Source of the DNA: a virus
DNA: 30,419 bases
IMG/VR virus record: IMGVR_UViG_3300026257_000013
Coordinates: 1-30,419 of that record
Reading direction: 5' to 3' (one strand)
Positions 7,636 through 27,548 of this stretch are shown piece after piece. The position numbers and the translations under genes were made by a program. The notes below the pieces were generated by a model. That model did not search any database, was not told the DNA's origin, and saw nothing but the letters and a program-made list of their open reading frames with translations. Numbering within the stretch: position 1 is the first letter of the stretch; each line of letters opens with the position of its first letter.

Positions 7636-7643
7636 TATTATAC
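7632..7643 (-). promoter_or_regulatory. Late promoter octamer, with TATAAT overlap, before gp20
   Basis: On the minus strand the stretch reads GTATAATAAATA. AATAAATA (7632-7639) is a late-type octamer 29 bases ahead of gp20. TATAAT (7637-7642), preceded by TGG, is also an extended -10 match. The gp19 stop codon lies within it. Confidence 0.55.
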
Positions 7644-18606: not shown

Positions 18607-18642
18607 CAAAAAATCCCTTCATACTATTTAGTAGAAGGGATT
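18607..18642 (-). terminator. Terminator hairpin between the 72-residue gene and gp13
   Basis: Minus strand: AATCCCTTC ... GAAGGGATT, a 9-bp perfect outer stem, with an inner TACT/AGTA pairing, followed by a T-run (six T, two shared with the stem). It should end transcripts from the oxygenase block. Its loop holds ACTAAATA (18625-18632), a late-promoter-like octamer 25 bases ahead of gp13. Confidence 0.8.
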
Positions 18643-18648
18643 CTAGGT

Positions 18649-18867
18649 TTATTCTGTCGGTGGATTCGCAATCTCTGGAGTGACTGCTTGAGTATCCTCT
18701 GGAGGTTTCTCCTCTTCTCCTGCAAGGAGTCCGAGTGTTTCCAAACCTCCTTCTAATTTTAATTTATATTCTGTTGCTTTTTTCAGATTCTCTTCGAGTT
18801 CTGTAATTTGAGTAGCAGTCTTAGCAATCTGCTCCTCAAAATTTGATTTCAACTGTGCTGGATCCAT
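18649..18867 (-). CDS. Small coiled-coil protein
   Basis: A 72-residue protein with a continuous heptad-like helix (about residues 4-50: LKSNFEEQIAK, ITELEENLKK, YKLKLEGGLE) and a flexible Pro/Glu/Thr-rich acidic tail. It sits six bases after the last oxygenase gene and is followed at once by a terminator. A coiled coil plus disordered tail suggests a small structural or chaperone-like role, but the family is not recognised. Confidence 0.75.
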   Translation of the reverse strand: MDPAQLKSNFEEQIAKTATQITELEENLKKATEYKLKLEGGLETLGLLAGEEEKPPEDTQAVTPEIANPPTE

Positions 18868-18873
18868 ATCTAA

Positions 18874-19416
18874 TCAAGGAATGAAGTTAAAGTTTACTAC
18901 AAATCTAGGTTTTTGTGTAGGTTTGCTGCTTGCGTGAAAACGTAAACCATCAAAGAATACACATCTACCTTTCTTTGGTGAGACGGTATTATTTATACCA
19001 TATTCTCCCATCGGATCACCGTATCTCTTTTCTGAAAAGTACGTATCACCGTCACTATCTGTTGCGTAGTATAAGCATACCATATGATCCTCTGGTATGT
19101 CAACATGCATCTGATCATATTCATTCTCCTTAACTCCTGGAGTTTGAAGGAAACATCTTCCACGTATTACTTTAGAGATGTTTACGTTAGCATTATAACA
19201 TGCCTCAAATACCAAAGGAAGAAACAATCCACTATACTTACTACACGATTTCCCATCCAATAAAAACATATGAGAGAATCCTACTAACTGACTGTCACCA
19301 TCTTCTACTAAGTTATCATGATACACCCATCTAAAATCTGTATCAAATCTTAGAGTCTCTTCAATAAGGTTTTGATAATTTGGATTGATGCAATCATCTT
19401 TAATAATGCTCTTCAT
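18874..19416 (-). CDS. 2OG-Fe(II) oxygenase 6 of 6
   Basis: A 180-residue protein with the 2-oxoglutarate/Fe(II) dioxygenase core: HVD (H104, D106), distal FH in RFHASS (H161), and the 2OG-binding Arg in KPRFVVNF (R171). It resembles prolyl 4-hydroxylase-like or phytanoyl-type small hydroxylases. The substrate is unknown; a protein or nucleotide is possible. Start ATG 19416 overlaps the previous gene by 17 bases. It is the last of six such genes in a row. Confidence 0.85.
   Translation of the reverse strand: MKSIIKDDCINPNYQNLIEETLRFDTDFRWVYHDNLVEDGDSQLVGFSHMFLLDGKSCSKYSGLFLPLVFEACYNANVNISKVIRGRCFLQTPGVKENEYDQMHVDIPEDHMVCLYYATDSDGDTYFSEKRYGDPMGEYGINNTVSPKKGRCVFFDGLRFHASSKPTQKPRFVVNFNFIP
18990..18997 (-). 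promoter_or_regulatory. Possible late promoter octamer within the oxygenase gene
   Basis: TATAAATA on the minus strand, inside a GGTAT/ATACC inverted repeat (18986-19000) in the coding region. It is about 123 bases ahead of the 72-residue gene, farther than other sites. Confidence 0.35.
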
Positions 19417-20017
19417 CTGGACCCTCTACATTCCAAGCAATATTCCCAGACACAGTTGTCCTTTCTTTATCAGTAGATCTAAATGGATATACAGCATGAT
19501 TTGTTGTTGATGGGAACATAAGAATTGTACCGTTCCATGAACTATCTACTGGCAGCACTTCCTTTTCCATTTGAAACGCTCCATCACTATAAAAATTATC
19601 CCTTTCTTCAGGACCATATGGTATATCAACAAATATCACAAAACTAACAACACCAGAATGAACATGCATTGGATTGTATTGGTATTTCTTCTGATAATTC
19701 GCCCACAAATTATGCAACCTTATGAACCGAGTGATATCCTTTGTCTTATTAAACTCCCATGGACATGTGGTATACACCCAATCCCATATTCCATTAACAC
19801 GATCTAAAAGATATTCTTCTAATCCTGGACATTCATATTTCCATTCACTTAAACTTGATTGTTGATCTAGAGCACCAGCCAATCTGGAATTCATATTCCA
19901 TACCTCATCCAATCTTCTTTTCCTAGTATAATCAAGAAGACTATAGTAGATGTCTTGTGGAATTTTCTCTGCTACAAAGTTTAAATTACTTTGACTGTGT
20001 ATATTACTGTCTTTCAT
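19400..20017 (-). CDS. 2OG-Fe(II) oxygenase-like 5 of 6 (HxH variant)
   Basis: 205 residues from ATG 20017 (ATGA overlap with the gene before; the TTG start at 20041 is not needed). The core is PMHVHSGVVSFVIF (H118, H120), distal TNHAVYPF (H174) and KERTTVSGN (R186). The acidic ligand usual in HxD is a His here, as in proteins of the PF13759-type group with H.H....SG. Whether it binds iron normally is open. Substrate unknown. Confidence 0.75.
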   Translation of the reverse strand: MKDSNIHSQSNLNFVAEKIPQDIYYSLLDYTRKRRLDEVWNMNSRLAGALDQQSSLSEWKYECPGLEEYLLDRVNGIWDWVYTTCPWEFNKTKDITRFIRLHNLWANYQKKYQYNPMHVHSGVVSFVIFVDIPYGPEERDNFYSDGAFQMEKEVLPVDSSWNGTILMFPSTTNHAVYPFRSTDKERTTVSGNIAWNVEGPDEEHY

Positions 20018-20529
20018 GAATATAAATCTGCAGCTAAACAATATCGGTTTTCATTTTGAATGCCTTTGCCAGGTATGTGTGGTAAGTTTGATGGAAATAT
20101 AAACCATGTAAATAAGTTCTTCGGTAAGTAATATGGATCATGATTTGGCATAGGGAACATAGTAGTTCCAGACTCACCTAATTTTATATACATTATACCA
20201 GATAATGTATAGGGATTTTCTGGATTGTGTGAGTGCATGTATGGTTCTATTGGATTATCATTCCAATCTATATACACCCATGAATTTATTTGATAATCAA
20301 ATACATCCATACCCCAAAATCTAGAACAAGCATCGTGAAATGACCATCTTAATTTCTTAATAATAGGTTCATCATACTCCAAGAAGTCATCTTTACCATC
20401 ATGGAAGGTGAGTTTGGATACGTGATCCATATTTTTAGTAAGAATATTCTTTTCGATAGAGGTATCAATAAACTTTATAAGTTCATCTCCATCAACATCT
20501 ACTGGATATTCTCTAATTCCTAATACCAT
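20014..20529 (-). CDS. 2OG-Fe(II) oxygenase-like 4 of 6 (HxH variant)
   Basis: 171 residues from ATG 20529, overlapping the previous gene by ten bases. The motif MHSHNPENPYTLSGIMYI (H99, H101) and distal LPHIPGKG (H151) with R162 are typical of the phage 2OG oxygenase family with HxH and a following SG. It is the closest in type to gene 5 of the tandem. The pair may be products of an old duplication, though overall similarity is low by eye. Confidence 0.78.
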   Translation of the reverse strand: MVLGIREYPVDVDGDELIKFIDTSIEKNILTKNMDHVSKLTFHDGKDDFLEYDEPIIKKLRWSFHDACSRFWGMDVFDYQINSWVYIDWNDNPIEPYMHSHNPENPYTLSGIMYIKLGESGTTMFPMPNHDPYYLPKNLFTWFIFPSNLPHIPGKGIQNENRYCLAADLYS

Positions 20530-21101
20530 CGTCTTGATTGTTTCTCATTTATATGATCATGAATTTCAGGAATACAGAAAGAGAATGCTACTGTAGTCCT
20601 GTAACCATTACCTATTAAAGTATTAGGAGAGTGTCCTTTATGATCCCAATTAGATGGTATAAGAACACCTGTATTTGGTATGTATGGTGTGTAGAAAGTC
20701 TTTCCATCTGGTCTCTGAGATACAAATTCACCACCCCATTCTAAACTCCATTCTTTTTGATTAAAAAGTACGAATGTCCATACATCATCTAATGGATAAT
20801 CTTTATGGAATAATGTATTCTGTCCAGCAGTTTGTCCATTAGCATGTATCTTACACAACTTAATATCTCTTCTAAGATGTTTCATCATCTTAAGTCTTAT
20901 TGTTGTGGCACACTTAGTAAATATTAAATCAGTTCTTAAAGGATGTTGCCATGACACAGGATCTCCTTTACCATACGATGCATTATTAAGTGTCCATGTT
21001 GCAAGACTACTTACTGCTGGTGAAGTTCTATTAAAATATTCATACAATGATTCAAACTCACTACGTGATAGAACAGTATCAATAACAATAGGTTCCTTCA
21101 T
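20520..21101 (-). CDS. 2OG-Fe(II) oxygenase 3 of 6
   Basis: 193 residues from ATG 21101, which overlaps the previous stop as ATGA and has GGTGGGG upstream; the longer start at 21119 is rejected. FHKDYPLDDVWTF supplies H99 and D101. GHSPN supplies the distal His (H157) and YRTTVAFSF the 2OG Arg (R168). The SLEWGGEF segment before the distal His is characteristic of prolyl-hydroxylase-like 2OG enzymes. Substrate unknown. Confidence 0.85.
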   Translation of the reverse strand: MKEPIVIDTVLSRSEFESLYEYFNRTSPAVSSLATWTLNNASYGKGDPVSWQHPLRTDLIFTKCATTIRLKMMKHLRRDIKLCKIHANGQTAGQNTLFHKDYPLDDVWTFVLFNQKEWSLEWGGEFVSQRPDGKTFYTPYIPNTGVLIPSNWDHKGHSPNTLIGNGYRTTVAFSFCIPEIHDHINEKQSRRWY

Positions 21102-21664
21102 TTGCCCCACCATAACCATCCTGTCATAATATACTTCTCATGATCATTTGAAATTTGTCCTCTATGTTTATGAGTTAATCCAGCAGGAAATAAAACTGTA
21201 CTACCTTTCTTTGCTTGCACAGTATAATCCTGATGATAAAATTCAGTTCCTCCATTAGGAACATCATTCAGGTATGTAATAAAAACAAAAGCTTTATCAC
21301 AACCATCTAAACCAGATCCATCCACATGCCATGTATAAAAACCTTCACCTGGTTTATAATACTGTATCTGTGGTAACTGCTTCATTGTAAACTCTTGGTT
21401 TCCAACTTCTAGTTCTTGTAAGTATTCATTTATAAAACCATCTAATGCTTTTTGATATGCATCATATTTAAAGTCACTTGGTTTTCCAAACTTTCCAGCA
21501 TCAGTGATAGAGAAATCAGTACTCTTCTTAATATCTGGAATGATACTACCACCACCAACTCTACCAGCATATGTCATTTCATCCTTATCCGCTATATGAA
21601 AAAGCTCTATAAGCTTGTCACATATATCAGGATCTTCTAATTGATATTCGTTAATAAAATTCAT
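21098..21664 (-). CDS. 2OG-Fe(II) oxygenase 2 of 6 (prolyl 4-hydroxylase type)
   Basis: 188 residues from ATG 21664 (ATGA overlap with the previous gene). TWHVDGSG gives H113 and D115, LNDVPNGGTEF is the strand before the site, GLTHKHRG gives H165 and EKYIMTGW the 2OG-binding Lys (K177). The order HxD...GGxTxF...H...K is the prolyl 4-hydroxylase alpha-subunit pattern. It could hydroxylate a proline in a phage structural or host protein; that is inference. Confidence 0.88.
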   Translation of the reverse strand: MNFINEYQLEDPDICDKLIELFHIADKDEMTYAGRVGGGSIIPDIKKSTDFSITDAGKFGKPSDFKYDAYQKALDGFINEYLQELEVGNQEFTMKQLPQIQYYKPGEGFYTWHVDGSGLDGCDKAFVFITYLNDVPNGGTEFYHQDYTVQAKKGSTVLFPAGLTHKHRGQISNDHEKYIMTGWLWWGK

Positions 21665-22251
21665 TTGTATGGTGGCCCCTGTACCCATCCAACTAATGAT
21701 TTCCTCTCACCAGATGTTACTTCTCTAACTCTGTGTGGTGTATCACCCATGAATATTATAACATCTTTCTTCTTCAATGGAATAATCTTTTTCTCATCTA
21801 TCACCATTTCAAATTCACCACCTTCAAAATCATCATTCAATAGTATAACAAAACTAAGTTTACGTATTCTATTTTCATGCCTCTTACCAGGCATCCAATT
21901 AGATTCATCTATATGCCAATCATAGTAACCACCTTTTTTATATACAGTATCCTGCAAAGGTTCTATGAAATCAATATCATAATCCCATTTACACTTATCA
22001 TTAGCAAAACTAATAAACCCATCCATCAATCCATACAAACGTTCATCATCTATAAAACGAGATTTTGATTCTCTATTTGCTAGATCAAGTTCTCCTTTAT
22101 TTTCTAAACCTTCTACCTTAGAAGATTCATAATCATCTATAGGTTTACTTTCACGATCTGTACCTTGACATTTCTTAAGTTGCCTTTCTATAAGATCAAA
22201 ATATTCATCTTCCATATTGATGATTATATACTGGTGTTTAAATGAATTCAT
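21661..22251 (-). CDS. 2OG-Fe(II) oxygenase 1 of 6 (PKHD-type)
   Basis: 196 residues from ATG 22251 (ATGA overlap with the fusion gene). YYDWHIDESNW gives H113 and D115, LNDDFEGGEFEM the following strands, DTPHRV H173 and GERKSLVGWV R183. This order is that of PKHD-type hydroxylases (YbiX/PiuC group). The N-terminal 70 residues are Lys/Glu/Asp-rich and vary from the family. Confidence 0.88.
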   Translation of the reverse strand: MNSFKHQYIIINMEDEYFDLIERQLKKCQGTDRESKPIDDYESSKVEGLENKGELDLANRESKSRFIDDERLYGLMDGFISFANDKCKWDYDIDFIEPLQDTVYKKGGYYDWHIDESNWMPGKRHENRIRKLSFVILLNDDFEGGEFEMVIDEKKIIPLKKKDVIIFMGDTPHRVREVTSGERKSLVGWVQGPPYK

Positions 22252-23996
22252 TTCTGACACACCATTATATGAACACCATTCCACCATCCATTAGGATCCT
22301 CTGGAACAGCAGTCAATATCTTACGATCAAACATAACTTTAATATCATTTTCCCTAACCCATATATTTGCCGACTCTACCACACCCATAAAATTAGCATC
22401 ATCTATTACTATTATAAACTGATCATCCATAATTGTATAGAGGTATGTTAAATTATCATACTGTGCTTGCGAGTCATGATCAGCATCATAGAAAATAACA
22501 TTCGCTTTCTTATTATCCATAGTGTGTTCATCATGAACAATATTAAAATCTGCTATATTCAGATCTTGAATACTTTTCTCATGGAAAACTTGATTCTTTT
22601 TCATACCTTTAAAGAATGCACCTTTAGGATTATTCATCTTAAATCCTTTATGTCCATATACTTTACCACCACTATCCCAACTATCCTCATCACGGAAAGG
22701 AGCAATATCTTCTTCTGAATAATTATCAACAGCAAACGCTGGTATATCTCTATCCATTGTCGCAGCAAAGAATGTACTACCAGCAGCAACACCTAATTCT
22801 AAATACACAGCATCTTCTTTAGAACATAAGTTATTAAGAAAATGTCTAATAATATTTGATGATAAACCTTCGTAATTAAATCCTTTTGGATTAAACTTAC
22901 TATCTCCTCTTGCAGCCTTATCAATAGAATTAAGAACTAGTTCTATATCCTTATCCATAATTCTTTCATTCTTTTTCATCCTAGAATGAATAACTGAATC
23001 ACAATAATTACAATCCCAACAATCAAACTTACACGTCTTAATCTTATCTCTCCAGATATCAATTGGTTTCTCTTGTAATGTAGTATCTTCAATATACTCA
23101 TCAAACTGAGGATATAATAATTCTTCATTAGCATCCCATCTTTTAATGATGTCCATAGATTCCATTAAACGCAAAGCATTCTCTCTACCATGCATCTTGA
23201 ATACATCAATACCTAAATCTACAAACTGTTCCCAATCTTCTTTCCATGGTGGTATAGTTGCTTGCTTTAAAGCATTAGCTGGATCTCTTTCATCCCATCC
23301 AGAACATGACACTCTACTAATAGAATCATTAAAATATTGAGGATCATCTTCTCCTCTTTCCATATTATAATGATAGTGTTCTGGCATGATCGGACATCCA
23401 CCCCAACACCACTCATTAGCAAGTAATGATATCTTAACTGGTTTACCTATTTCAGCACAATATTCCTTTGCTTTTTTAATTCTTAGTAGTTGATCATGAT
23501 CTCTCATTAGATCACGATCTAAATTAATATAATTAAATCCTGCCTTTGCTAAATTAACTATCTCGTTTGCTCTTGTTACTTCTCTGAGTATAGTATTTTT
23601 AATATAGAGTTCTGGAAACTCTTTCTGTATCTGTCCAGTTAACAACCATGTCGTATGAGGTATCGTAGCAATACGAACACCCATATCATATACTGGTTTA
23701 AAATTTTCAATAAAAAGATCCAAGTTCTTTTGATTAGGAAGAACCTGAATATTATTAAACGTTGCTGATAATGGAATACCTGTTTCCTGAGAAACATAGA
23801 GAGCATTGAATGTTGTCTCCCTCATATCCCCATCAATACTATCCCCCATCGCGTCTTGGACGAATGGAGGCATCCGACATGTAAAGTATATGTCGGAAAT
23901 ATATTTCTTATACTGATTCAGGAACGGAATAAAAGTTCCTGTTACAAAATCTTCAGGTAATTTTGTATTCAGCGGGATTGAGAATCTTTGATCCAT
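22248..23996 (-). CDS. U32-like TIM-barrel/SAM-methyltransferase fusion protein
   Basis: 582 residues in two parts. The N-terminal part, to about 300, alternates strands and helices as a TIM barrel, and has LDRDL (159-163) and NEWCWGGCP (194-202) with C231, a layout like U32 proteins (UbiU, RlhA, TrhP), which use an Fe-S cluster for oxygen-independent hydroxylation. A second Cys group, C322/C326/C329/C332, lies between domains. From about 385, YLELGVAAGSTFFA (398-411), AVDNYSEED, IFYDADHD (501-508) and IIVIDDANF form a class I SAM-methyltransferase of the Methyltransf_24 type. The U32 assignment is by pattern and is moderate; the methyltransferase call is firmer. It overlaps the 83-residue gene by 44 bases and is coupled to the first oxygenase. 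Confidence 0.65.
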   Translation of the reverse strand: MDQRFSIPLNTKLPEDFVTGTFIPFLNQYKKYISDIYFTCRMPPFVQDAMGDSIDGDMRETTFNALYVSQETGIPLSATFNNIQVLPNQKNLDLFIENFKPVYDMGVRIATIPHTTWLLTGQIQKEFPELYIKNTILREVTRANEIVNLAKAGFNYINLDRDLMRDHDQLLRIKKAKEYCAEIGKPVKISLLANEWCWGGCPIMPEHYHYNMERGEDDPQYFNDSISRVSCSGWDERDPANALKQATIPPWKEDWEQFVDLGIDVFKMHGRENALRLMESMDIIKRWDANEELLYPQFDEYIEDTTLQEKPIDIWRDKIKTCKFDCWDCNYCDSVIHSRMKKNERIMDKDIELVLNSIDKAARGDSKFNPKGFNYEGLSSNIIRHFLNNLCSKEDAVYLELGVAAGSTFFAATMDRDIPAFAVDNYSEEDIAPFRDEDSWDSGGKVYGHKGFKMNNPKGAFFKGMKKNQVFHEKSIQDLNIADFNIVHDEHTMDNKKANVIFYDADHDSQAQYDNLTYLYTIMDDQFIIVIDDANFMGVVESANIWVRENDIKVMFDRKILTAVPEDPNGWWNGVHIMVCQK

Positions 23997-24204
23997 ATTC
24001 TTCTAGAACCTTATTAATAAATAAACCTTCGTTGTCACTATGTTCTATCAAGAGACTTTTATTCTCTTTACAGATTTCTCTGAGCTTTACTCTATCTAGA
24101 TCTTTATTTTTATCTTCAAGACTGTACTTATCATACATCATGAAATGTATAACAGGCAGAAGCTCTTCATACCTTTCTGCATCAGCGTGCCAGGTTCCTG
24201 CCAT
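23953..24204 (-). CDS. Hypothetical protein (83 aa)
   Basis: A charged helical protein of 83 residues (MAGTWHADAERYEELLPVI, then DKNKDLDRVKLREICKENK). No membrane segment or metal motif. A CATAAATA late octamer lies about 36 bases upstream. It overlaps the fusion gene by 44 bases. Function unknown. Confidence 0.7.
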   Translation of the reverse strand: MAGTWHADAERYEELLPVIHFMMYDKYSLEDKNKDLDRVKLREICKENKSLLIEHSDNEGLFINKVLEEYGSKILNPAEYKIT

Positions 24205-24205
24205 C

Positions 24206-25081
24206 TTAATTGCCCTCTTTTAAATGTAACTGTCCTGTATATTTATGCGCCTCAAACTTGGGCATTGTTATACCTTCCGATTCTATTTGTGCTTGTATAG
24301 CAGGAGCAAATGTTTTATTTAATTTGTCCATACCACCACCAACGAGAGCAGAGAATTGTATTGCTACTTCTAAACACTTAACTTGATCCTGTTCTGGCAT
24401 ATCCAAAATAGAAGTCATGTTACCAGTAGATATTCTACCATAAGATACAATATCCATAGCAGCCTGTTTACCCATACGAGCAATCCAGTATATTCTTTCT
24501 TCCTCTTCTTGTTCTTCTAAGAAATACTCTAGTGGATGGTCATCATCAACAAACTCATTAACAGTCTTCAAGAAATGTGTCATTTCTATTTCTGACTGAC
24601 GTAGTTTCCTTTTCCAAATACCTATGTCATAATCATTTTTTTCTAAATCGATCTGGATAAATCCAGCATCAATTTCATCTCCACCTTCTGCCGCTAAATT
24701 ATCAAGAGTACGAACGAATTTCTTTCTTAATAATTCTGCTTTTCTAAGACTGTGCCTATTTTCCATATAAGCATGATACCTTGTTTCTAGTTCCATCAAT
24801 GCTTGACGAACCTTTCTCCAAGGAGTCAATTGCATATCAACAACAAAATGCTTACTTTGATATTCAGTCATACCGCTATTGAAGCGCATACAACCTTCTA
24901 AAATATCAAAATCTTTCTTTGAGAAATCAAATTCCTCAACGAAAGACTTAGCTAGATTTATCTCTCCAGTATCAGAACTGACTATGTTATTAACATCAGC
25001 AATGATATCTGACAACTCTGCGTTGTAAGATAATCTTGAATTTTTTGGATCTCTGTTAACTAATTCAGAATTTAAAGACAT
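24206..25081 (-). CDS. Hypothetical helical protein (291 aa)
   Basis: A 291-residue protein, mostly helical and charged, with FVVDMQLTPWRKVRQALMELETRYH (about residues 78-102), an Asp/Glu-rich EEQEEEERIYW segment and a C-terminal GGGMDKLNKTFAPAIQAQ. No known motif is visible. It starts 17 bases inside the end of the gene before. Its position between fibre genes and the modification block suggests a virion or fibre-assembly role, but that is only context. Confidence 0.75.
   Translation of the reverse strand: MSLNSELVNRDPKNSRLSYNAELSDIIADVNNIVSSDTGEINLAKSFVEEFDFSKKDFDILEGCMRFNSGMTEYQSKHFVVDMQLTPWRKVRQALMELETRYHAYMENRHSLRKAELLRKKFVRTLDNLAAEGGDEIDAGFIQIDLEKNDYDIGIWKRKLRQSEIEMTHFLKTVNEFVDDDHPLEYFLEEQEEEERIYWIARMGKQAAMDIVSYGRISTGNMTSILDMPEQDQVKCLEVAIQFSALVGGGMDKLNKTFAPAIQAQIESEGITMPKFEAHKYTGQLHLKEGN
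24240..24247 (-). promoter_or_regulatory. Late promoter octamer before the 83-residue gene
   Basis: CATAAATA on the minus strand, 36 bases ahead of ATG 24204, inside the end of the 291-residue gene. It could start the transcript of the fusion and oxygenase genes. Confidence 0.5.
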
Positions 25082-25880
25082 ATGCGTCTACCTCATACTC
25101 TGGTTTTCGATCCCAGTCAGTATCAGATATGGTGCGACCCATTTCAATTGCCTGTGATTGAGGCATCATGATACCGATGTGATCTTCATATAATATATTT
25201 AGGTCCCATACAGTATCGGCATCTTCAAACTTTTTCTTAAGTTTTTGATACGTAACAAGCATGGTAGATAGTTTATCTTCGTATGCCTCAGCTTTAGTAA
25301 GTATTTTATTTGATAGATCTGTTTTATCTAAAGCTCTTTCTGTAGCAAGGTAGTCAAGGAATGGTGTCTTACTTCCATTCTTTCCTTTTTCTCTCAACCA
25401 CTCTCTTGCTTCATGCTTCTGTATTTCCCAAGAAGCAGTTTCTAATTCTGTTGTATCTCTTAGATTTTTAATTCTTACATTAAATTCATCATCAACAATC
25501 TCTACAGCAAAGATACTCATGAAATCAGTAATTTCTTTTCTGATTTCATCTGTCAATTCTACTGGTACTTTAAGAATACCACCAGCAGGAGTCCATGCTT
25601 GAGCAACACCTTGTTGGTTAACCGTTGCCATAATCTTACCAAAAGGTCTAACTTCTGAGAAGAAGTTTGATCCATTCAATGCTTGCTTCTTAGTAACCTC
25701 TTTGTATTTGTGTTCCCACTCTTTAGAGATAACTTGGAAGATGTTTTCACTTACTTCCACACATGCAAAATGCATCAACGAAAATATTTCGTTGTAATGT
25801 AGCCTAGCATCAGCGGTCTCAGCAATATTGACATACTGCTCAGGCTTAATTTCTTTTTCGTTAAGTATTAGGTATCTCAT
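25065..25880 (-). CDS. Hypothetical protein (271 aa)
   Basis: From ATG 25880, whose A is shared with the previous stop (TAATG); the reading to 25925 adds 15 residues that overlap the fibre gene and is not preferred. The 271-residue product has a helical middle (residues about 60-240) with LNGSNFFSEVRPFGKIMA and several Lys/Glu-rich helices, and ends DRKPEYEVDAYVFKF. No known domain is recognised. Coupled to the fibre-like gene upstream and to the 291-residue gene downstream, so the two unknowns may work with the fibre. Confidence 0.75.
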   Translation of the reverse strand: MRYLILNEKEIKPEQYVNIAETADARLHYNEIFSLMHFACVEVSENIFQVISKEWEHKYKEVTKKQALNGSNFFSEVRPFGKIMATVNQQGVAQAWTPAGGILKVPVELTDEIRKEITDFMSIFAVEIVDDEFNVRIKNLRDTTELETASWEIQKHEAREWLREKGKNGSKTPFLDYLATERALDKTDLSNKILTKAEAYEDKLSTMLVTYQKLKKKFEDADTVWDLNILYEDHIGIMMPQSQAIEMGRTISDTDWDRKPEYEVDAYVFKF

Positions 25881-27166
25881 TATTGTGCATAGATTGCGGT
25901 AACAGTAGCAGCAGCTGAACAGCAACCACCTGAAGATTGTCCATAATGTCCTTTAGGTCTTGTAGAAGCACCCATATTAGTCTCAACATCAGTAGAGTAA
26001 TCCCACTTAGTAGTGTGGTTATTCTGCTGACCATCATATTGTCCCATCATGTAACCCCAGTCTTGACCCATCATCATGTTCTCTTCTCCGTAAGAACGAA
26101 CCTTAGATCCATTCTTAATACCAGATCCTGAAGAACCATTATACTTAGTCCAAGGAGTTGTAACGTTGTTACCAGTTCCACAATAGAAGTGACCCCACTT
26201 AGAACCAAGCGGCTTACAAACTCCGTCAGGAGCCATAGAGGAAGACCAACCACCCCAACTATCGTTAGAATGATTACAGTAGTATCTATTACCTGAGAAT
26301 GAAGCCCATGTCTTATCTTCATCGGCAACTGATGAAGTATGGTCATTACCAGAAGGTGAGTTACCTGCCTGATACATGATCTCTGAAGGGAAGTGTAATT
26401 TACCTACAGCAGAGTTACCTCCACCTAAGTTATACCCATGCTGTTGTTTTTGTGCAGATGCACAGGAGTTTCTGTCTCTGTTGACAGGCATGTTCCAACC
26501 ACCAACAGTACCATATCCCATAACACCTCGTGGATCGTCTCCTTCCCAACCGTAGTTAGCAGGTGAGTATGTTCCACCACCAGGGTTACTACCTGATGTA
26601 CCAAACATTCGTCTCATTCCAGTATGGAGGTTGATCGAAGATGTATGGCTTGATGATCCAGTGAATGAGTTAACACACCCATGACCATAACCGAAGTAGT
26701 CACTCCAAGTAACGTCAGCGTATGTTAATGCACGGTCAAGTTGTTCGCCACAGTAGAAAGTAACATCTGTAGCGTGCCAGGTTTTGTTTACTGTTCTCCA
26801 AGGATTAGAACCCTTGTATCCAGCAATCAAGTAACCATGCGTAATCAAACTTCTATATCTCCATCCAGTCATGGGTGAAGAAACGGCATTACTCCCTCCA
26901 GGATATGCCCAGAAAGTTCCGTTTTCTCCATCAGATACTAAGTAAGCACCTCTCGTATCATTAGTGGCTCCTGGTATACCACCTCCTACGTCATCCCAAT
27001 CAGAACCATTCCAGATTTGTGCTTTCGCATCTGAAGAGTTCCAGATCATCTGACCTATATTAGGAGATGCAGGTCTACTGCCACTAGCAAATGAAGGCAA
27101 CTTCAGACCTTGTGTGGCCAAAGATGCATTTCCTGTGACAACAGTTCCAACTGTTAATTGAGACAT
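25880..27166 (-). CDS. Tail-fibre/virion structural protein
   Basis: A 428-residue protein rich in Gly, Ser, Asn, Trp and Tyr. The N-terminal SLATQGLKLPSFASGSRPAS and IGQMIWNSSDAKAQIWNGSDW resemble the start of other fibre-associated proteins in marine phages. The body (GYLIAGYKGSNPWRTVNKTWH, ADVTFYCGEQLDRALTYADV, INLHTGMRRMFG) is typical of a cyanophage structural protein of the fibre cluster. Several Cys (CGE, CVN, SCAS, CCSA) are present. No collagen-like stretch is seen. It is probably a receptor-binding or fibre-tip protein. Confidence 0.75.
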   Translation of the reverse strand: MSQLTVGTVVTGNASLATQGLKLPSFASGSRPASPNIGQMIWNSSDAKAQIWNGSDWDDVGGGIPGATNDTRGAYLVSDGENGTFWAYPGGSNAVSSPMTGWRYRSLITHGYLIAGYKGSNPWRTVNKTWHATDVTFYCGEQLDRALTYADVTWSDYFGYGHGCVNSFTGSSSHTSSINLHTGMRRMFGTSGSNPGGGTYSPANYGWEGDDPRGVMGYGTVGGWNMPVNRDRNSCASAQKQQHGYNLGGGNSAVGKLHFPSEIMYQAGNSPSGNDHTSSVADEDKTWASFSGNRYYCNHSNDSWGGWSSSMAPDGVCKPLGSKWGHFYCGTGNNVTTPWTKYNGSSGSGIKNGSKVRSYGEENMMMGQDWGYMMGQYDGQQNNHTTKWDYSTDVETNMGASTRPKGHYGQSSGGCCSAAATVTAIYAQ

Positions 27167-27188: not shown

Positions 27189-27196
27189 TATTTATG
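27189..27196 (-). promoter_or_regulatory. Late promoter octamer before the 428-residue fibre gene
   Basis: CATAAATA on the minus strand, 23 bases ahead of ATG 27166. A second octamer, GATAAATA, lies at 27205-27212. Confidence 0.6.
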
Positions 27197-27548
27197 ACTT
27201 AGGGTATTTATCTTTGATAGCAGCGACAGATTGATACCACTGACCATCTTTTCCAGGAACTACCCCTAGTTCCATATCATGCCAAAGTTTGTCAAGTTGC
27301 TCTTCAATTTGTTCATATTCAAATTTTCTTTTGAAGTCGTAAGTGGCATCAACTACCACACGTTTAGTAATTTGTTGAGTTTGAGTATCCCAATAAAAAT
27401 CAGGAGCCTGTAAACCATCATCATCTACTTTATCAAAAGGTCCATTTACCCATTCAAAATCTTCATGAGTTTCAAATGTAGGTGCATTTGAATCTTGTAT
27501 CTGTTGTACAGTTCCACTTTTTTTATGTACTAATGAAATATATGCCAT
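27192..27548 (-). CDS. Small fibre-cluster protein (possible XkdW-like)
   Basis: 118 residues from ATG 27548, chosen over 27581 because the longer frame overlaps the previous gene. N-terminal MAYISLVHKKSGTVQQIQD is beta-rich. The C-terminal YEQIEEQLDKLWHDMELG, GKDGQWYQSVAAIKDKYPK follows the layout of a family common in marine phages (YPSIGDQLD...LW...FY...IKxxYPK). This group often lies next to tail-fibre genes and may be an assembly or chaperone protein. Function not established. Confidence 0.65.
   Translation of the reverse strand: MAYISLVHKKSGTVQQIQDSNAPTFETHEDFEWVNGPFDKVDDDGLQAPDFYWDTQTQQITKRVVVDATYDFKRKFEYEQIEEQLDKLWHDMELGVVPGKDGQWYQSVAAIKDKYPKS

Follow-up and report, generated by a model that had tools for sequence, protein, structure and literature searches.

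The virus record IMGVR_UViG_3300026257_000013, a 30.4 kb sequence of the T4-like cyanophage type (the window, that is, the whole stretch analyzed), carries six consecutive minus-strand open reading frames (ORFs), OxA to OxF (22251-18874). Sequence comparison confirms all six as members of the 2-oxoglutarate (2OG)/Fe(II) oxygenase superfamily with predicted enzyme activity, as the original prediction for this DNA had stated; the observation proves stronger than first put, and the interpretation attached to it is supported in part. In our preferred reading, to which we give a probability of roughly 0.45, they belong to a late operon that would hydroxylate a co-expressed host-recognition virion protein, the adhesin-like S428 being the prime candidate. 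The 2OG oxygenases of marine cyanophages are common and unexplained, and they are usually read as tools for reprogramming host metabolism. An ordered, selected and probably late array beside an adhesin-like gene argues instead for the finishing of virion proteins, and S428 provides a named protein that can be checked.

Three of the six pass the Pfam gathering cut-off of 27 bits: OxA (21661-22251; PF13640, 1.8e-14, 54.9 bits), OxB (21098-21664; PF13640, 7.3e-11, 43.3 bits), and OxE (19400-20017; PF13759, 8.5e-11, 42.6 bits), the last also matching phrog_81 at 2.6e-23. The others fall under it, with PF13640 reaching 0.033 (15.6 bits) for OxC (20520-21101) and 2.3e-4 (22.5 bits) for OxF (18874-19416), and PF13759 reaching 0.17 (12.7 bits) for OxD (20014-20529). 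These three are placed in the superfamily because of their PHROG matches (phrog_274 at 1.4e-16 for OxC and 1.9e-35 for OxF; phrog_81 at 4.9e-5 as the sole PHROG support for OxD) together with conserved ligands and, for OxD, the fold. At least 97% of the aligned members of each family (41-56 per family) keep the metal triad and the distal Arg or Lys 2OG ligand, with the pattern HxD..H..R in OxA, OxC and OxF, HxD..H..K in OxB, and HxH..H..R in OxD and OxE. The OxD ligands are invariant in 17 relatives, and HxH is also found in PF13759-type proteins of four other contigs (L127, L144, L112, and L165). The starts of all six genes were trimmed by comparison with relatives. Two PHROG labels were set aside: 'DNA endonuclease V' (phrog_274), since its members carry 2OG ligands, and 'minor coat protein' (phrog_1644), since its members match DUF6445, a family that appears oxygenase-like from its His/Asp pattern. 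Both labels occur in the record annotation of 2OG-type and DUF6445-type proteins (for example, L001, 4238-4837 and 10610-11320), where they look wrong.

The several subfamilies that had been proposed for the block are indeed present. The catalytic core of OxA aligns with PiuC structures (E 2.7e-7), but only about 90 of its residues do so, and it scores 50.7 bits against an equivalog cut-off of 143 for the NCBIfam model PRK05467 (PKHD/PiuC); it is therefore called PKHD-like only. OxB resembles the prolyl 4-hydroxylases (P4Hs), including that of chlorella virus PBCV-1, in having an invariant Lys as the 2OG ligand and in weakly matching a bacterial P4H profile. Its match to a solved P4H is marginal (0.0016), and no collagen-like proline repeats were seen in S428. 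PMC9301287 cites the case of a virus that has a P4H and 4-hydroxyproline in viral proteins. OxC is of the phrog_274/FlmC-like kind, its match to NF052475 (1.3e-4) lying under the cut-off of that model; no paper on the 'FlmC' oxygenase was found in the literature searched, nor any relative in a scan of bacterial and archaeal genomes with the OxC profile. For OxD, a PF13759-like protein, the AlphaFold model is of low confidence (predicted local distance difference test, pLDDT, 62; predicted template modeling score, pTM, 0.67) and suggests a double-stranded beta-helix. In Foldseek, its top solved matches belong to the 2OG oxygenases, TlxI and PHD2 among them (E 4e-4 to 1e-3), with Bacillus and chlorella-virus prolyl hydroxylases lower among the matches. 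Profiles of OxC, OxE, and OxF found no credible relative among solved structures.

The genes are physically coupled as well. Read from the sequence, ATGA overlaps join the upstream U32-like gene to OxA, OxA to OxB, OxB to OxC, and OxD to OxE, while OxC and OxD overlap by 10 nt, OxE and OxF by 17 nt, and OxF is separated from the next gene by a 6-nt gap. The original prediction had the four ATGA junctions right and its overall count slightly too low: it gave five overlaps in six junctions, and all five internal junctions overlap in addition to the upstream one.

To what extent the array is shared was read from viral contigs scanned with the U32-like gene, OxC, OxD, and gp13. We define the slot as the interval from the U32-like/O-methyltransferase gene to gp13, which 95 contigs hold whole; these were ranked by closeness to the window, and the sampling hence favors the relatives of the window and does not give frequencies among all cyanophages. 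Six oxygenases occupy 20 of the 95 slots (in two of them the sixth is placed after the 72-aa gene described below) and seven occupy 13. The seventh, G (PF13640, 6.7e-7), gives one of the order variants, A-B-G-C-D-E-F, alongside A-B-C-D-E-F, A-B-C-E-F, A-B-C-D-E, and A-B-C-E; the arrays of relatives thus hold four to seven oxygenases in fixed order. With family H (DUF6445, taken as an oxygenase type) included and the 72-aa gene excluded, families A-H account for 291 of 306 slot ORFs. Outside the slot, oxygenase-type ORFs make up 36 of 405 on the upstream side and 3 of the 427 that lie downstream of gp13. At 95% U32 identity the 95 contigs form 52 clusters, 20 of which have at least four oxygenases. 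Because the same order recurs in dozens of contigs, whose proteins may share as little as 49-67% amino-acid identity in pairs (the figure varies by family), the array is not a chance arrangement. An assembly artefact of one contig was likewise rejected, as the U32 gene occurs together with A, B, and C in 53 contigs; the homologues form one module instead of being scattered. The module belongs to uncultured cyanomyoviruses (Kyanoviridae-like), and among 50,697 phage records none had a match to A-F of at least 60% identity, OxD having no match at all.

Other genes have entered some of these slots. In one contig (L028:7818-8195), OxA and OxB are separated by an inserted gene for a SpeD-like adenosylmethionine decarboxylase (TIGR03330, 4e-32), and similar ORFs of 117-125 aa lie in the same position in L039 and L043. 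A hydrophobic transporter-like protein of 346 aa is found between the 72-aa gene and gp13 (L056:10154-11194, also L057 and L058). Free-standing relatives of OxC (44-49% identity) occur in another genomic context (L207-L225); one of these contigs, L217, is the same record as L052, whose slot has a different oxygenase set.

Whether the six are duplicates or separate gains was asked by comparing them. In pairwise phmmer comparisons, A and B are similar at 3e-6 and every other pair is at 0.009 or worse, and profile-profile comparisons among the array proteins found nothing besides A/B. In a tree with other cyanophage oxygenases, whose bootstrap support is unsettled, each of A-G forms one clade among the seven; for A, B, E, F, and G the nearest relatives belong to other phages or lie at other positions, and the branches leading to C and D are long. 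A recent tandem duplication was rejected on these grounds. With similarity limited to A/B, and from the tree placement, the array appears to have been assembled mostly by separate gains. Median dN/dS (the ratio of nonsynonymous to synonymous substitution rates) is 0.11-0.28 across the array families, which indicates that the genes are under purifying selection, and the idea that they are degenerate copies was rejected from this ratio and the conserved ligands. Between the window and seven-gene contigs, dS is about 0.4 for OxD and near or above 1 for its neighbors; such gene-wise differences indicate mosaic exchange.

Directly upstream of OxA, and ATGA-coupled to it, lies a 582-aa gene (22248-23996, minus strand; phrog_1458, 8e-227) predicted to fuse a U32-like domain to an O-methyltransferase domain. 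In its structural model (pLDDT 79, pTM 0.54), residues 1-277 match the U32 peptidase 5d88 (Z 15.6, root-mean-square deviation 3.4, 218 residues), and the C-terminal part matches O-methyltransferases at Z about 15, resembling small-molecule enzymes such as TomG; a sequence profile of the gene found nothing in the PDB. Hydroxylases are known among U32 proteins (TrhP, RlhA, and UbiU/V). The modeled fold of residues 1-277 is shared with TrhP, RlhA, and UbiU; the difference is that the gene is fused to an O-methyltransferase and lacks the canonical Fe-S cysteine spacing CX6CX15CX3/4C (PMC6747719). Its invariant cysteines are C197, C201, C231, C322, C326, C329, and C332, and since their spacing departs from that motif the gene is called U32-like only.

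How would such a block be expressed? In the window, the minus strand carries all the genes for portal, capsid, sheath, terminase, and neck, as well as one for plastocyanin. The order of transcription runs from a tail fibre gene that leaves the contig through N251, P129, S428, Q286, R291, T83, the 582-aa gene, OxA-OxF, the 72-aa gene, and gp13 to gp14. The block thus lies in the host-recognition region, between tail-fibre/adhesin genes and the neck gene gp13, in agreement with the position first ascribed to it. The late promoter described in cyanomyoviruses is NATAAATA (PMC2984593), and motifs of this type number 27 on the coding strand of the window and 4 on the other. Counted within 75 nt upstream of each gene in the cassette loci, a late-type motif precedes S428 in 22 of 22 cases, T83 in 29 of 32, N251 in 14 of 14, and gp13 in 30 of 30. 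It is found before none of 260 array genes (A-G), none of 34 U32-like genes, and 1 of 31 72-aa genes. In the window, two ATAAATA late-promoter-like motifs precede S428 (27189-27211), and another lies about 40 nt 5' of T83 (24240-24246), the small 83-aa gene (23953-24204) that heads the unit. At the other end, the 72-aa gene (phrog_580; 18649-18867) is followed by a terminator-like hairpin with a T run (18608-18642; -18.4 kcal/mol, z -4.5) that has counterparts in related loci, all of these features being on the minus strand. Read most simply, this layout describes a late unit that ends with the 72-aa gene and starts at T83, or at S428 if transcription reads through from there. Transcription of the array probably begins late, along with that of the structural genes, and the late-gene context of the block is supported. 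The original prediction described the array and left out the coupled U32-like/O-methyltransferase gene, the seventh oxygenase of relatives, the promoter and terminator layout, and the constant adhesin-like neighbor. The hairpin would itself form a compact terminator/promoter, containing within it the CTAAATA late-promoter-like motif for gp13 (18625-18631), and similar sequences are found in many related loci.

The adhesin-like neighbor, S428 (25880-27166, minus strand; phrog_1417), is a Gly/Ser-rich protein whose homologues are labeled 'sericin 1 precursor-like' and whose N-terminus is like that of adhesin-like proteins in the same slot of relatives. It is separated from the U32 unit by the conserved genes Q286 and R291 (phrog_1604 and phrog_1409; 24206-25880, minus strand). 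Of the cassette contigs, 35 extend four or more ORFs upstream of the U32-like gene, and S428 is present in every one of them; it is missing from nine listed single-oxygenase contigs. Adhesin-like genes also lie beside oxygenases in some related slots (L112 and L165). A set of 26 S428 residues that are invariant in cassette phages and rare elsewhere is confounded by ancestry and was not used.

In the mechanism we propose, the unit would comprise the 83-aa gene, the U32-like/O-methyltransferase gene, OxA-OxF, the 72-aa gene, and the hairpin, placed between the tail-fibre/adhesin genes and gp13. Each oxygenase, with its own substrate pocket, would act while virions are assembled and hydroxylate defined residues of a co-expressed host-recognition protein of the virion, and the U32/O-methyltransferase may add hydroxyls or O-methylate them. 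A bolder form, which we consider possible but doubtful, is a protein-finishing line in which the U32-like/O-methyltransferase and four to seven oxygenases of one late operon put site-specific hydroxyls, perhaps methoxy groups, on a tail adhesin. If this were true, host recognition would hinge on post-translational chemistry that shifts with the gain, loss, or exchange of individual enzymes. Several points weigh against virion-protein hydroxylation. OxC, OxD, and OxF are under the Pfam cut-offs, late expression is read from motifs, and we infer what the U32/O-methyltransferase does, as well as the activity of the oxygenases, their substrate, and the order in which they act. The linkage of S428 to the array is suggestive and may reflect shared ancestry; relatives of S428 occur in L075, L079, and P-HM2, whose slots lack oxygenases, so these proteins do not require the enzymes in every phage. 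Moreover, cyanophage 2OG genes are also found among replication genes, as in S-SCSM1, so that the family taken together is not specific to virions.

Among the alternatives, it is unlikely, though worth weighing, that the oxygenases act late in infection on the surface of the host or on its proteins, ribosomal, envelope, or light-harvesting ones for example, from a slot that is only a convenient late locus. PMC9602691 cites prokaryotic 2OG oxygenases that hydroxylate ribosomal proteins, and the host-recognition clusters of pelagimyophages include glycosyltransferases with a presumed role in altering the host surface (PMC7029224). However, the late-promoter-like layout and the constant adhesin-like linkage fit virion targets better, and the data suggest no host target. 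Tailoring clusters typically couple oxygenases to a methyltransferase gene, and the likeness of the O-methyltransferase domain to small-molecule enzymes would suit a pathway in which the array tailors a metabolite or peptide. We regard this as improbable: the unit showed no enzyme that would make a scaffold, no carrier, and no transporter, and the other surrounding genes are structural or without assignment. Nucleic acids are a comparably improbable target, whether through AlkB-like repair or through hydroxylation and then methylation of tRNA or rRNA in the style of TrhP/TrmR. Repair has been proposed for cyanophage 2OG proteins (PMC2984593), the U32 proteins TrhP and RlhA hydroxylate RNA (PMC6599085), and the O-methyltransferases that the C-terminal domain matches include TrmR, at a Z of 15.0 that many others share. 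Yet the oxygenases match protein-hydroxylase types (PiuC, P4H, and PHD2) and not AlkB, and the U32-like gene is found both with and without oxygenases among the slot contigs, so its role may be separate.

The two remaining explanations both seem to us very improbable. Drawdown of 2-oxoglutarate that shifts host nitrogen control, after Sullivan et al. 2010, has been proposed for cyanophage 2OG oxygenases generally (PMC3037559); bulk consumption, however, would not need six to seven divergent enzymes in fixed order, each under separate purifying selection. A recombination hot spot that gathers oxygenase genes with little joint function would fit the mosaic dS, the swapping of D between lineages, the gain and loss of D, F, and G, and the insertion of speD in some contigs, but a neutral hot spot would gather mixed genes, whereas a single enzyme type makes up 95% of the slot ORFs, with fixed order and conserved ligands.

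Cyanophages commonly have one to five 2OG oxygenases each (PMC3037559; range as given in PMC9602691), with S-SCSM1 having 24 such genes (PMC9602691). The present array shares with this repertoire the superfamily, the virus group, and a run next to tail fibres: in the isolate S-SCSM1, four consecutive overlapping oxygenase genes immediately precede a tail-fibre gene that carries a virion-protein annotation. There, however, the genes are mostly dispersed and are treated as host-metabolism or repair genes (PMC3037559, PMC9602691), whereas here six to seven are kept in conserved order and coupled to a U32-like/O-methyltransferase gene. The host recognition cluster of marine T4-like phages (PMC7029224) is similar in being hypervariable, in ending at the neck genes, and in combining tail fibres with accessory genes; the accessory genes stressed for it, chiefly in pelagimyophages, are glycosyltransferases, in contrast to the oxygenases of this array. 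In the literature searched, the coverage of which was partial, no description of a six- to seven-gene array was found.

Elsewhere in the window, two different genes (901-1425 and 7638-8234) match the tail-tube family phrog_45, and ARAGORN places a tRNA-like gene with no type assigned at 12166-12260, directly upstream of the terminase gene.

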